Shown here piece by piece: positions 4,983 through 29,271 of a stretch of DNA of 45,024 bases. The stretch's first letter is position 1, and each line of letters opens with the position of its first letter. Source of the DNA: Opitutales bacterium (lineage in GTDB: Bacteria; Verrucomicrobiota; Verrucomicrobiia; Opitutales; Coraliomargaritaceae); contig JANQXM010000067.1 in assembly GCA_030729385.1 (NCBI GenBank), forward strand, positions 1 through 45,024. The letters are read 5' to 3'. The notes under the pieces were generated by a model. The model was given only the letters and a program-made list of their open reading frames with translations, did no database searches and was not told the DNA's origin. A program made the position numbers and the translations under genes.

Positions 4983-5035
4983 TTATTTAAATGCTGAAAT
5001 TCTGAAAACTGAGAGCTGAAACTGAAAACTGAATG
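4983..5035 (-). repeat. Degenerate ~7-bp repeat array in the guaA leader
   Basis: On the plus strand the unit CTGAAA recurs about six times with small changes (CTGAAAT, CTGAAAA, CTGAGAG, CTGAAAC). In the guaA sense the repeat is TTTCAG. The segment at 4993-5012 is identical over 20 nt to 32755-32774, upstream of the DAHP synthase gene, in the same orientation and at nearly the same distance from the start codon. Confidence 0.7.
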
Positions 5036-5037
5036 AA

Positions 5038-5271
5038 TTAAAATCTTAAGCGACCATTGGTAAAGCCGCATTGGGGGCAATCGCATTCTTCACTACGATG
5101 TGGTCCTGTGTAAATGTGACTGCATTTGATGCAGTGGTAAATGACTTTTGAGCGCTGGGCTGCGTGGAGATGCTTGTCGCGCCAATCGTAATAAAACCAT
5201 AGTCCAAATAGCAGCAAAAAGCCTGCCCCTATGTAGAGGAGAAAGAAAATATCTACATCCAGACCGATCAC
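5038..5271 (-). CDS. Small membrane-anchored zinc-ribbon protein
   Basis: I do not recognise a named family. The 77 residues hold one transmembrane helix (about residues 8-27, IFFLLYIGAGFLLLFGLWFYY) followed by a short basic linker. A C-terminal zinc ribbon has CIKC (near 47-50) and CDCPQC (near 63-68), so four cysteines could bind one Zn. The start is GTG, 12 nt after the smc stop codon, suggesting co-transcription with smc. The ribbon resembles FmdB/rubredoxin-like ribbons used for protein or nucleic-acid contacts, and it would face the cytoplasm if the positive-inside rule holds. Confidence 0.65.
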   Translation of the reverse strand: MIGLDVDIFFLLYIGAGFLLLFGLWFYYDWRDKHLHAAQRSKVIYHCIKCSHIYTGPHRSEECDCPQCGFTNGRLRF

Positions 5272-24680: not shown

Positions 24681-25622
24681 CTACTTTGCTTCAGCCCGGT
24701 CGATCCGACCGAATTTCTTGATCAAGATCCCGTAGCGCGGCGCGCAAAACAGGGTGATCGCAAATAGCACGCCTGCCATCACCGCCATCATGCCCGATGT
24801 GGATGTGGCATCGACTACTGCAGGATCAAAGCCTAACCAGCCGGGCACAAATAAGGCAGTAATATGCCCGAGCACGGCCGCCAGCGCAGCGAGTATCACG
24901 CTCAACAAAATCATCACACCTAAGCGATCGGTTAATAAATGCGCGGTTGCCGCCGGCACGATCAACATCGCAATCACGATGATACTGCCCACCGCTTCAA
25001 ACGCAGCCACCGTCGTGATCGCCACCAAGGTCATCAACAAATAGTGCATCCAATTCGCATTGATGCCCATCGTTGTCGCCAGTTCAGAGTCGAACGAAGT
25101 GATCCGCAGCTCCTTAAAGAAAAATACCACGAACAATAAATTCACCGCACAGACAATCGAAAGCACCACAGCCGCACGTGGCACATCGAGAATGGCTCCA
25201 AAAATGGACGGTCGCCATACTACATCCAAGGGCGTCAATTCGATCGCACCATACAGCACGCAACTCGCATCGAGATCGACATGATCCGCAGCCTGAACGA
25301 TCAGTAAAAGCCCCAATGCAAAAAGCGTGGTAAAAACAATCCCCATCGAAGCCCCTTCATCGACCTTCCCAAAACGGCTCACCCACTGAGTGAAGACTGC
25401 AGTTAAAACACCCACCACGGCGGCACCAATAAACATCGTCAAACTCGCCCTTGCGCCCGTCACTAAGAATGCAATCGCGAGCCCGGGCAACACGGCGTGA
25501 CTGATCGCATCCCCCATCATACTCATCTTACGAAGCACGAGAAAATTGCCCAACAGCGCACACGAAACCGCCGCCAGAATACCGACGATTACGATCCACG
25601 TATCAATTGCATACCATTCCAT
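24681..25622 (-). CDS. troD: Metal ABC transporter permease (TroD-like)
   Basis: This ABC-3 family permease for Mn/Zn/Fe has 313 residues and about eight or nine transmembrane helices. The conserved motif LLGNFLVLRKMSMMGDAISHAVLPGLAIAFLV at the start and AVGSIIVIAMLIVPAATAHLL in the middle are diagnostic. It forms a heterodimer with the TroC-like half. An AGGAG site at 25635-25631, overlapping the end of troC, lies 8 nt before the ATG. It is the last gene of the operon. The metal is inferred from the TroA-type binding protein. Confidence 0.9.
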   Translation of the reverse strand: MEWYAIDTWIVIVGILAAVSCALLGNFLVLRKMSMMGDAISHAVLPGLAIAFLVTGARASLTMFIGAAVVGVLTAVFTQWVSRFGKVDEGASMGIVFTTLFALGLLLIVQAADHVDLDASCVLYGAIELTPLDVVWRPSIFGAILDVPRAAVVLSIVCAVNLLFVVFFFKELRITSFDSELATTMGINANWMHYLLMTLVAITTVAAFEAVGSIIVIAMLIVPAATAHLLTDRLGVMILLSVILAALAAVLGHITALFVPGWLGFDPAVVDATSTSGMMAVMAGVLFAITLFCAPRYGILIKKFGRIDRAEAK

Positions 25623-25625
25623 AGC

Positions 25626-26978
25626 TTAGTCTCCTGGTTGAATGGGGTGTGGGCTCACCGGAACGGCAAGTGATTCGGCAGGACGCAATGTCTGCAATTT
25701 ACTCTCCAACAAAGCGACCATCTTCTCCCCCAGAACGTGCTCCACCGCATCCGCATCACGATCCACCCGACTCGCCGCGATGTCGGCATATTCAATCAAA
25801 TACAATTCCCATAGTCGGTGATTACGTGTCACTTGCGCCGCTGCTTCCACCCCAGCCTCCGTCAATACGATCTCGTCGAATCGGTTCAAGGTTTCGACCA
25901 ATCCTTCATTATACGCCAATCGTAAATAACGCTTCAACTGTCGATCACTCCAGGTTCGACGCCCGCGCACTTGGCGAAATGGAACCGCGCGAATCTGAAT
26001 ACCTCCGTCCCCTAGCCCATCTGCTTCTAGAATTTCATATAGGGCGCGCAATAAATGCTGACGTCCAACACTGCGCTTCAAATTCAACTGCCGCACCACT
26101 CGCACCAGCACCCCTCGCTCCACGCCAACAAACATGCTGAATACAAAACAACCTGCCGCCACGAGCACAATCAACGCCCCCGCCGGCATATTTGGAATCA
26201 AGGCACTCACGCTAGCACCAATCCAACCACTGATCCCACCAATCACCGCAGACAGCAGGAGCATTTGATCCAGTCGATCCGTCCAAAAACGAGCCGCAGC
26301 AGCTGGCGTGATTAAAAAAGCGATGATCAGAATTAACCCCACCGCTTGTAGCCCAGCCACGGTCACTGCCGTCACTAAACCGAAGAGTAGAACATCCAAA
26401 AATTTCACCGGCCAGCCCTGCGCCAAAGCATATGTCTCATCGAAACAAAGCAGACGGAATTCCTTAAATAAAAAGATCGAAAGCACCAAAACGCAGATGG
26501 TCACAACCGTGAGCAGCCAAAAATCACTCAATACCATCGACGCGGTCTTACCGTAAATAAATGATTCTAATCCCGCAGCCGCACCGTCCGGCATCTTCGT
26601 CACCATGGTCAACAAAGCCACGCCGGCGCCAAAAAAGACCGACAACACAATGCCCATCGCCGCGTCGTCTTTGATACGCGATTGATTACGAATAAACAAA
26701 ACCGCGGCACATCCCAAAACACCTGTAACTGTCGCACCTAGAAGCAAGAATGGCAGCGACTTCCCCGTGCCTCCCAGCAACACGCCGACCATGAAAGCAA
26801 TACAGACACCGGGCAGTGTAGCGTGAGATAAAGTATCGCCCATCAACGAGCGCTTACGCAGCAGTAAAAAGCCTCCCATCAGGCCGCATGCCGAACCTAA
26901 GAGCATCGTGCAGATGACCACCAAGCGCGTATTATAATTACGCAGAAAAAGCACTTCGATGATATCAGAAAATTCCAT
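25626..26978 (-). CDS. troC: Metal permease fused to a DtxR/MntR-like repressor domain (YtgCR-type)
   Basis: Residues 1-~290 are an ABC-3 permease (CGLMGGFLLLRKRSLMGDTLSHATLPGVCIAF; AVGLILIIAFLITPAAAARFW). Residues ~295-450 are a separate soluble part. A winged helix (LLRALYEILEADG...WSDRQLKRYLRLAYNEGLVETL...IVLTEAGVEAAAQV) is followed by the DtxR dimerisation/metal-binding segment RNHRLWELYLIEYADI...DADAVEHVLG. Metal-ligand equivalents H387, E413 and H414 are kept; the glutamate three residues before E413 reads D410. Chlamydial YtgCR has the same fusion and is cleaved to free the repressor YtgR. SH3-like domain 3 of DtxR is absent, as in MntR. The ~158-residue tail exceeds any normal permease C-terminus. 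Confidence 0.9.
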   Translation of the reverse strand: MEFSDIIEVLFLRNYNTRLVVICTMLLGSACGLMGGFLLLRKRSLMGDTLSHATLPGVCIAFMVGVLLGGTGKSLPFLLLGATVTGVLGCAAVLFIRNQSRIKDDAAMGIVLSVFFGAGVALLTMVTKMPDGAAAGLESFIYGKTASMVLSDFWLLTVVTICVLVLSIFLFKEFRLLCFDETYALAQGWPVKFLDVLLFGLVTAVTVAGLQAVGLILIIAFLITPAAAARFWTDRLDQMLLLSAVIGGISGWIGASVSALIPNMPAGALIVLVAAGCFVFSMFVGVERGVLVRVVRQLNLKRSVGRQHLLRALYEILEADGLGDGGIQIRAVPFRQVRGRRTWSDRQLKRYLRLAYNEGLVETLNRFDEIVLTEAGVEAAAQVTRNHRLWELYLIEYADIAASRVDRDADAVEHVLGEKMVALLESKLQTLRPAESLAVPVSPHPIQPGD

Positions 26979-26984
26979 TCAACT

Positions 26985-27794
26985 TCATCGTTTTCGCATG
27001 AGTTCCTCCGCGGCTTGGCTCAAGAGCGTCAACTTACCACCGTAGGTTTTGTGCAAGTTCTCCTGATTAAACACTTCTTCAGTCGGACCACTCGCCACGA
27101 CTCGCATGTTGAGCAACACCGTCCAATCAAAATATTCCGGCACCGTCGCCAAATCGTGGTGCACCACCAAACAGGTCTTACCGCGTTGCTGCAACTCTTT
27201 GAGCAAGTCTACAATCGCTCGCTCCGTCGCCGCATCGACCGCAGCAAATGGCTCGTCCATAAAATAAATATCGGCATCTTGCACCAACGCACGGGCCAAA
27301 AAAGTGCGCTGTTGTTGTCCGCCTGAAAGTTGACTGATTTGCCGATGCGCGTAATCAGCGAGTCCCACACGATCCAAGGCCTGCATCGCTAACGCCTTGG
27401 AGCGTTTGTTCACCCGTCGAAACCAACCAAGCTGCCCGTAGGTGCCCATCGCAACCACATCGAGCGCACTCACTGGAAAATCCCAATCCACACTCTCGCG
27501 CTGCGGCACATAACCCACCCTTTTACGCGCTTTCGAATATGGCTCACCGTAAATAAGCACCTCACCTGAAGAACGTGGAATCAAGTCCAGAGCCGCCTTC
27601 AGTAATGTGCTCTTACCCGCACCATTGGGTCCAACAATACTGACCAATTTTCCCTCTGGAATCGAAAGCTCCACATCCCAAACCACTGGCTTACGATGAT
27701 ACGCCACCGTCAAATCTCGCACCACTAAAGGCCATGACTTCGTCGATACCGTCTCACTGTTTGTATGTATTATTTCTTTGGATACAGTGTTCAT
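26985..27794 (-). CDS. troB: Metal ABC transporter ATP-binding protein (TroB-like)
   Basis: The 269 residues contain Walker A GPNGAGKST (55-63), the Q-loop VPQRESVDWDFP typical of metal-importer ATPases, signature LSGGQQQR, Walker B YFMDEPFA and the switch histidine in LVVHHDLATVPEYFD. It energises import through the two permeases encoded downstream, with 6 nt to troC. Its start is separated from troA by the GxxExxY cassette. No Shine-Dalgarno site is seen before the ATG. Confidence 0.93.
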   Translation of the reverse strand: MNTVSKEIIHTNSETVSTKSWPLVVRDLTVAYHRKPVVWDVELSIPEGKLVSIVGPNGAGKSTLLKAALDLIPRSSGEVLIYGEPYSKARKRVGYVPQRESVDWDFPVSALDVVAMGTYGQLGWFRRVNKRSKALAMQALDRVGLADYAHRQISQLSGGQQQRTFLARALVQDADIYFMDEPFAAVDAATERAIVDLLKELQQRGKTCLVVHHDLATVPEYFDWTVLLNMRVVASGPTEEVFNQENLHKTYGGKLTLLSQAAEELMRKR

Positions 27795-27807: not shown

Positions 27808-27837
27808 TTAACCACATAATACACAAAAATCACAAAA
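27808..27837 (+). repeat. Left 30-nt inverted repeat of the GxxExxY cassette
   Basis: It starts TTAACCACATAATACACAAA and ends ATCACAAAA. Compared with the reverse complement of 28196-28225 it matches 26 of 30 positions. It includes the last three codons of the GxxExxY gene. Confidence 0.75.
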
Positions 27838-28195
27838 CGAATTTCTTAACTTCAAACTTGGAAGCACCAAAGTTCATAAGCATTCCATGTTTTACATTAG
27901 ACGTTTTCAAATAGGACAAAACTTGGGCATAGTGACTCACGTCGAGGTGCTTCACTGCCTTCAGTTCAACGATCAATTGCCCACCAATAAAGAGATCGGC
28001 ATAATACTCACCAACAACACTACCATCCTCATCAATGACGCTTAAGGGATGCTGCTGAACAACTTCTATCCCCTTACTACGCAATCGATTAACAAGTGAG
28101 TTCTCGTATACCTTTTCAAGAAACCCATTCTTAAAATACACGTGAACTTCAAAACCAGTTTGTCGAACGACATCAACTAATTCTTGAGTATCCAT
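27830..28195 (-). CDS. GxxExxY protein (PD-(D/E)XK-like)
   Basis: The 121 residues carry the defining motif G24-F-L-E27-K-V-Y30. A GEYYADLFIGGQLIVELKAV block follows, with the D...ELK arrangement of the PD-(D/E)XK nuclease fold, and then HYAQVLSYLKTSNVKHGMLMNFG, all typical of the family. These genes are frequent in PVC and Bacteroidetes genomes as scattered single copies and in rRNA intervening sequences; no biochemical role is established to my knowledge. It lies in the same orientation as its neighbours, between troA and troB, and is bracketed by 30-nt inverted repeats, one touching its ATG. It appears inserted into an older operon. Confidence 0.9.
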   Translation of the reverse strand: MDTQELVDVVRQTGFEVHVYFKNGFLEKVYENSLVNRLRSKGIEVVQQHPLSVIDEDGSVVGEYYADLFIGGQLIVELKAVKHLDVSHYAQVLSYLKTSNVKHGMLMNFGASKFEVKKFVL

Positions 28196-28225
28196 TTTTG
28201 TGATTTCTGTGATTTTTGTGGTTAA
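28196..28225 (-). repeat. Right 30-nt inverted repeat of the GxxExxY cassette
   Basis: It abuts the ATG at 28195, so it also supplies the leader of the gene. It is the inverted partner of 27808-27837 (26 of 30). Internally it has a ~9-nt periodicity (ATCACAGAA / ATCACAAAA). Confidence 0.75.
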
Positions 28226-28246: not shown

Positions 28247-29233
28247 TTAATCATGCCGAAAACCTGCAGCTTCCCCGCCAAGGGAGTTCACGATGGTGGT
28301 CACGTTGTTATCGATCATACCGATGTAAGTGCCCTCGTAGGTGCCGGCTTGGCCCATCGCGTCGGAAAAGAGCGAGCCACCAATCACCACTGGATGCCCA
28401 CGCGATTTCGAACCTTCGACTAACGCACGCACATTCTTATCGGCTACAGAAGTCTCTACAAAAACAGCGGGGATCTTTCGCTTCACAATGAAATCAACCA
28501 AATCTTCGAGATCACGCACACCTGCCTCTGATTCGGTGCTTACCCCCTGAATGCCTCGCACTTCGATACCATAAGCACGCCCCAGATAGCGAAAGGCATC
28601 GTGAGCCGTCACCAAAACACGTTGCCCTTCTGGGATCGTGGCCATCGCCTTCTTCGCATAAACGTCCAAGGCTTCAAGTTGTTCCACATAAGCGGTCGCA
28701 TTACTGCGATAGGTCGCTGCGTTTGCGGGATCATACGCAGACAGCGTTTCAGCCACAACAGGCACCGCCTTGAGCCAGCCGCTCACATCCATCCAAACGT
28801 GCGGATCTGTATATTCTGAGCCGTCTTCCTTATCCATTAAGTAATCCGTCTCATCCAATATTGCCTCGGTCACTGCTTTCACTGGCTTACCTGTCGTCGC
28901 CACACGCACCAGCACGTCCGTCATTTTACCTTCGAGTAGCAATCCATTATAAAAAACCACGTCCGCGCCACTCAGTTTCACCACATCGCTGCGAGTCGGC
29001 TTGTAGAGGTGCGGATCCACGCCTTCACCAATGATGCCCTCCACCTCGGCGTAGTCTCCAGCCACATTGCGCACGATGTCTGTGATCATACCCACAGTGC
29101 AAACCACCTTGTAGGGGCTCGCACCCGACTCCACCGACTCGGACTCGTCACCACCACTCGGGGCACAACCAATTAATGAAAACACGACTGTAAGCAGTGC
29201 TAATGGACGTAATAACGATAACTCAAATTTCAT
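28247..29233 (-). CDS. troA: Metal-binding lipoprotein of the ABC importer (TroA-like)
   Basis: This 328-residue cluster A-I substrate-binding protein captures Mn/Zn. A lipobox (LTVVFSLIGC) anchors it at C23. Metal ligands by family position are H75 (DPHLYKP), H145 (DPHVWMD), H211 (VTAHDAFRYLGRAYG) and D291 (LFSDAMG). Three His plus Asp is the TroA/ZnuA set, whereas strict Mn proteins have Glu at the third place. There is no His-rich loop. QGVSTESEAGVRDLEDLVDFI closely recalls Treponema TroA. I start at the ATG at 29233; the frame stays open to 29500 through the promoter region. A perfect palindrome directly precedes it. Confidence 0.92.
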   Translation of the reverse strand: MKFELSLLRPLALLTVVFSLIGCAPSGGDESESVESGASPYKVVCTVGMITDIVRNVAGDYAEVEGIIGEGVDPHLYKPTRSDVVKLSGADVVFYNGLLLEGKMTDVLVRVATTGKPVKAVTEAILDETDYLMDKEDGSEYTDPHVWMDVSGWLKAVPVVAETLSAYDPANAATYRSNATAYVEQLEALDVYAKKAMATIPEGQRVLVTAHDAFRYLGRAYGIEVRGIQGVSTESEAGVRDLEDLVDFIVKRKIPAVFVETSVADKNVRALVEGSKSRGHPVVIGGSLFSDAMGQAGTYEGTYIGMIDNNVTTIVNSLGGEAAGFRHD

Positions 29234-29271
29234 ACTTTGAATACTCAAAGTCCTATTTTCATTAATGTCAA
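29234..29271 (-). promoter_or_regulatory. Candidate troA promoter with operator-like palindrome
   Basis: On the minus strand a perfect TTGACA (29271-29266) is followed after 14 nt by ACTTTGA-GTAT-TCAAAGT (29251-29234), a perfect 7+7 palindrome ending next to the ATG. The palindrome covers the place where a -10 element should be, so a bound dimer would block transcription. The DtxR-like domain of the TroC fusion is the obvious candidate to bind it. The -10 itself is not recognisable. Confidence 0.5.

Follow-up and report, generated by a model that had tools for sequence, protein, structure and literature searches.

Among known systems close to the protein analysed here is YtgCR of Chlamydia, the product of the third gene of the ytgABCRD operon. 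In YtgCR, an ABC-3 permease carries a C-terminal DtxR-type domain, and the partner permease, YtgD, is unfused. Ever since YtgR, it has been puzzling how a repressor domain could work while locked in a membrane permease. Other known proteins are similar in part: the ABC-3 permeases TroCD, PsaC and MntB; the stand-alone repressors DtxR, IdeR, MntR and DR2539; and MetN and ModC, whose cytosolic regulatory domains bind substrate and mediate trans-inhibition (these substrate-bound domains are cited in PMC10710835). We analysed a window of 45,024 nucleotides, the whole of positions 1 to 45,024 of contig JANQXM010000067.1 (assembly GCA_030729385.1), from a bacterium of the order Opitutales (Verrucomicrobiota). 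It contains a gene, troCR, whose product joins an ABC-3 permease to a DtxR-type domain. We suggest, with a probability of about one half, that this domain is the metal-sensing and dimerising module of a Mn(II)/Fe(II) importer and likely acts on the transporter, and that a soluble DtxR represses the operon.

TroCR has the architecture, the operon position and the unfused partner of YtgCR as described. It differs in size: the reported YtgR product is 28-30 kDa, and the domain here is 17-18 kDa. An earlier note on this DNA had presented TroCR as a YtgCR-type protein outside Chlamydiae. We confirmed the fusion. Its occurrence outside Chlamydiae is not new, however, since a review (PMC5599777) credits Thompson 2012 with permease-repressor fusions in 11 phyla.

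The fused gene and its predicted fold

We found that a single open reading frame joins the two parts. troCR lies at 25626-26978 on the minus strand and encodes 450 amino acids; stop codons crowd the plus strand over the same span. Pfam placed an ABC-3 permease at residues 18-283 (E 3e-62) and the family Fe_dep_repr_C at residues 372-429 (E 3e-11). The same search of the 450-residue protein gave no match to the N-terminal helix-turn-helix (HTH) family of DtxR. Among sequences in the PDB, the permease matched PsaC (7kyp, E 9e-36, about 33% identity, with a matching fold), and residues 352-429 matched DtxR-family regulators. Unlike TroCD, PsaC and MntB, TroCR carries an added C-terminal domain, a putative sensor, at about residues 290-450 (25629-26111, minus strand). 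Chance is excluded as the source of the fusion, which recurs with one permease clade in about 100 loci.

AlphaFold2 (AF2), given 65 aligned homologues, yielded a model of TroCR (predicted local distance difference test, pLDDT, 90.8; predicted template-modelling score, pTM, 0.84). The model has helices at residues 290-320 (H1), 334-340 (H2) and 345-357 (H3), a wing at 361-372, and the dimerisation helices after it. Helix 290-320 is predicted confidently and without a break, so that the end of the permease runs straight into the first helix of the HTH. The layout of the domain is thus a winged HTH (305-372), metal-binding and dimerisation helices (374-431) and a conserved PH motif close to the C-terminus. 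Modelled alone, the domain matched DtxR 2qq9 (Z 13.8, 2.5 Å over 127 residues) and Bacillus subtilis MntR structures (Z about 13.7). The model and the structure match agree on the winged helix and metal-binding/dimerisation fold of the DtxR/MntR family. This is the fold that the earlier note had expected for residues 290-450, after a full permease in the same frame.

By alignment column, the ligand positions hold H308, R311, H387, E391, D406, D410, E413 and H414, of which all but R311 are candidate metal ligands. The three that the earlier note had named, H387, E413 and H414, are correct and correspond to H77, E102 and H103 of MntR. H308 falls in the column of MntR D8 and DtxR M10, R311 in that of MntR E11, E391 in that of DtxR E83, D406 in that of DtxR H98, and D410 in that of MntR E99 and DtxR C102. 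The columns of the DtxR primary site (M10, C102, E105 and H106) hold H308, D410, E413 and H414; two are substituted, and all four residues are able to bind metal. TroCR shares with DtxR, IdeR, MntR and DR2539 the fold, the dimerisation helices and most of the ligand columns. It differs from them in having H308, R311, D406 and D410 at ligand columns, in lacking an SH3 domain, and in a recognition helix and wing that are not conserved.

We compared 108 TroC-type, 46 TroD-type and 48 stand-alone domains. The columns of H77, E102 and H103 were 97-100% conserved in all three sets alike. Together with E81, they were conserved to the same degree in about 150 fused domains from several phyla, which argues that metal binding is under selection. 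A tryptophan at column 80 (W390) was invariant in the fused domains and nearly absent from the stand-alone regulators.

A candidate operator at troA, the soluble DtxR and the DNA-reading part of the fused domain

The operon has a candidate operator, the palindrome ACTTTGA-N4-TCAAAGT, which in the window's family directly adjoins the first codon of troA. In the window it reads ACTTTGAGTATTCAAAGT on the minus strand (29234-29251), immediately before the troA ATG, and is a predicted site for a soluble DtxR of the long type. Among stand-alone regulators, we call those of 200 or more amino acids long DtxR; the short type is MntR. Of 97 loci, 29 have TTTGA-N4-TCAAA upstream of troA, and the remaining 980 kb of locus sequence held 4 matches.

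We found that the class of the operator follows the adjacent stand-alone regulator. Where a long DtxR flanks the operon, the motif, if found, was TTTGA/CTTGA-N4-TCAAA/G (21 loci) and never the other type. Next to a short MntR, the motif was TAGC-N4-GCTA (5 loci) and never the TTTGA type. Over the 97 loci this association (21:0 vs 0:5) has p 1.5e-5, a value that is optimistic because the loci are related. Counted by hand and by genome, the motif occurred in 17 of 28 genomes with a long DtxR anywhere and in 0 of 12 without one. In two genomes (G320 and G278) it also stands where stand-alone dtxR genes that are not next to the operon begin. It precedes a DtxR-FeoA-FeoA/feoB operon in a genome without TroCR (G001), and in another (G173) it is near a cluster of an outer membrane protein gene and feoB.

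Two genomes separate the operator from the fused domain. In G397, a member of the window's family, TroC stops at 318 amino acids without the domain, and both the troA operator and the soluble DtxR are retained. G395 has the fusion and lacks the motif at troA, and its genome (83% complete) yielded no long DtxR. The window's own genome encodes a soluble long DtxR on another contig (C36:4302-4964). Taken together, the motif at troA, dtxR and feoB, the patterns in these two genomes and the DtxR of the genome itself suggest, as the simplest reading of the sequences, that repression of troABCD is the work of the soluble DtxR and does not require the fused domain.

We note some further sites in the genome. 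The gene for the soluble DtxR and a gene for an SO_0444/ArsP-like permease, recognised by eye, are transcribed divergently (locus L073, 3092-4964), and the interval separating them holds no full operator. The operator recurs as one further perfect copy (C7:34023-34040; about 5024-5041 of locus L160) between a gene for a Gfo/Idh-type oxidoreductase and a HIT/PhoH pair, and no link to metals is evident in these neighbours. Genome-wide, matches with 2 mismatches were no commoner than those of a reversed-pattern control, and we therefore kept to perfect sites.

The DNA-reading part of the fused domain has decayed. The long stand-alone regulators have PGT.TTM in the recognition helix and YEPR.G in the wing, and fused domains retain neither. 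The ratio of conservation in the HTH to that in the metal-binding/dimerisation part was 0.45 in fused TroC and 0.50 in fused TroD domains, in contrast to 0.87 and 0.97 in stand-alone regulators, although alignment error in a variable loop could account for part of this. Within the window's family, where alignment is trivial, the fused HTH was 62% identical at 92% identity of the dimerisation part; the stand-alone HTH was 84% identical at 96%. The operator is constant in this family although the fused HTH diverges. Across the loci, fused recognition helices were equally alike within and between operator classes (effect 0.001, null standard deviation 0.015). Our results are best read as an old fusion that has probably kept metal sensing and dimerisation and would have little or no part in reading the troA operator.

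A proposed sensor for the transporter, and other explanations

We propose that TroCR forms part of an importer of Mn(II) or Fe(II) of the TroABCD type, and that its C-terminal domain lies in the cytosol, senses metal and dimerises. Transcription would be controlled at the palindrome at the troA start by the soluble long DtxR, and not mainly by the fused domain. At high cytosolic metal, the metal-loaded domain would close or destabilise the importer, coupled to it through the one continuous helix that is predicted to run from the last transmembrane helix into the domain. The logic would be that of the substrate-loaded C-terminal domains of MetN and ModC; the likeness is of proposed logic only, as the domain of TroCR has a different fold and sits on the permease, not on the ATPase. 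We infer which metal is transported, that the domain acts directly on transport, and that domains pair. A sensor on the transporter is suggested by four observations: the metal-binding and dimerisation part is constrained, DNA reading is not, the predicted link is rigid, and in many relatives both permeases are fused, often beside a dedicated repressor. We found no DtxR-type case in the literature among the metal-sensing domains of ABC importers.

Several observations weigh against this proposal. Within the window the domain is on TroC only and troD is unfused, so that a pairing of TroC and TroD in cis, possible elsewhere, cannot occur; domains would pair between transporters or not at all. 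The fused recognition helix is still basic, with a mean net charge of +2.5, and some DNA binding is therefore possible. The soluble DtxR gene on C36 has no evident operator copy of its own. Finally, in C. trachomatis the fused YtgR binds DNA and represses ytgABCD and trpBA (PMC5599777, PMC6504234, PMC7755916). A wider proposal would accommodate YtgR as a case of the domain serving as a repressor: fused domains of TroC and TroD generally would be paired, allosteric sensors that bind incoming Mn or Fe and shut the transporter, with a separate DtxR for transcription. We advance this only tentatively and think it more doubtful than the narrower proposal for TroCR.

Our results might also indicate that the fused domain, freed by proteolysis or active while tethered, is, like YtgR, the repressor of its own operon and uses metal as corepressor. 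The architecture and the gene order shared with ytgABCRD, the repressor fold, the basic recognition helix and the palindrome at troA are all consistent with this notion, which the earlier note had favoured. However, the fused HTH diverges under a constant operator and lacks the helix and wing motifs of the stand-alone regulators, the class of operator tracks the stand-alone regulator, AF2 predicts no flexible linker, and in G397 the operator has outlived the domain. We therefore consider self-repression unlikely in this lineage, if still the strongest of the alternatives to a sensor acting on the transporter.

It is considerably less probable that the fused domain serves as a dock or decoy. 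In such a scheme it would use the dimerisation surface to pair with the soluble DtxR, which would be kept at the membrane or supplied with metal, and transporter abundance would tune repression. The dimerisation helices and ligands are indeed the best conserved part of the fused domain, and a soluble DtxR accompanies the fusion in most genomes. However, the fusion also occurs in genomes with only a short MntR or with no detected long DtxR (G164, G211, G385, G337 and G131), and the invariant tryptophan on the fused surface is missing, or almost always missing, from the aligned stand-alone proteins. Least probable of all is that the domain steadies the permease or rides along as a passenger with no role in sensing: it can be lost (from TroC in G397, from TroD several times), but its four ligand columns are almost invariant.

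Operon, history and significance of the fusion

Apart from one inserted open reading frame, troCR is the third gene of an importer operon of the troABCD/ytgABCD type. The minus-strand order is troA, a GxxExxY (PDDEXK_3) open reading frame, troB, troCR and troD. The order of tro genes given in the earlier note was right, and the frame between troA and troB had been overlooked. troA (28247-29233, with a likely ATG at 29231-29233 adjoining the operator) encodes a substrate-binding lipoprotein of the ZnuA family; troB (26985-27794) encodes the ATPase, with models for Mn/Fe importer ATPases as its best in NCBIfam; and troD (24681-25622) encodes a second ABC-3 permease of 313 amino acids without a DtxR domain. 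The components of an ABC-3 metal importer are thus all present. In NCBIfam, the ATPase and the binding protein are nearest to Mn/Fe and Zn importers. A sigma-70 promoter scan upstream of troA gave nothing above chance; a TTGACA is seen there by eye only.

The GxxExxY frame (27830-28195, minus strand) is bracketed by 30-nt inverted repeats, 87% identical, at 27808-27837 and 28196-28225. One other locus of the family (L034) has it at the identical place, and the other mapped family loci are without it. The whole segment (27808-28225) looks like a mobile cassette inserted into the operon.

We found the fusion in about 50 of 388 Verrucomicrobiota genomes and also in Planctomycetota, Kiritimatiellota, Lentisphaerota, Sumerlaeota, Desulfobacterota and Acidobacteriota. 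In 46 loci, TroC and TroD both bear the domain, often beside a stand-alone DtxR. Trees of the permease and of the domain were made by quick searches and are unrooted. In the permease tree, all fused TroC lie on one side of a branch with support 100, and TroD, fused or unfused, lies on the other; gain or loss of the TroD domain needs about 6 changes. In the domain tree, which rests on few columns, stand-alone regulators are apart from fused domains (99), and the TroC group (88) and TroD group (94) are separate. Across the sampled relatives, these phylogenies of the two parts suggest one old fusion, apparently of single origin, followed by repeated loss of the domain from TroD, including in the window's lineage. 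The raw correlation between sites in the TroC domain and the presence of a TroD domain is strong at two columns (r 0.88), but the trait changes only 3 times on the tree, too few to tell coevolution from shared descent.

Some relatives have unusual forms. G397 is a natural loss of the domain from TroC (L179, 6087-7043), and the new end of TroC overlaps troD. G068 has a divergent single-permease operon (L161, 382-1929) in which the permease-DtxR fusion has a shortened HTH and an extra SH3-like C-terminal part. Proteins of 317-345 amino acids in L165, L166/L202 and L168 have a DtxR-type domain and apparently two FeoA-like domains; that of L202 is upstream of feoB, and that of L165 combines the HRLWE motif of permease-fused domains with a hydrophobic segment at its N-terminus.

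The permease-repressor fusion itself is already a known kind. The evidence favours a division of tasks in which the soluble DtxR would control transcription and the fused domain would sense metal for the transporter. Since these relatives, apparently free-living, combine the fused domain with a soluble repressor, the two roles are separable genetically. From the operator motif, a Mn/Fe regulon of these bacteria can be predicted and tested. Should the fused domain gate transport, ABC importers would gain a new class of substrate-sensing domain, and the origin of YtgR would be seen differently.
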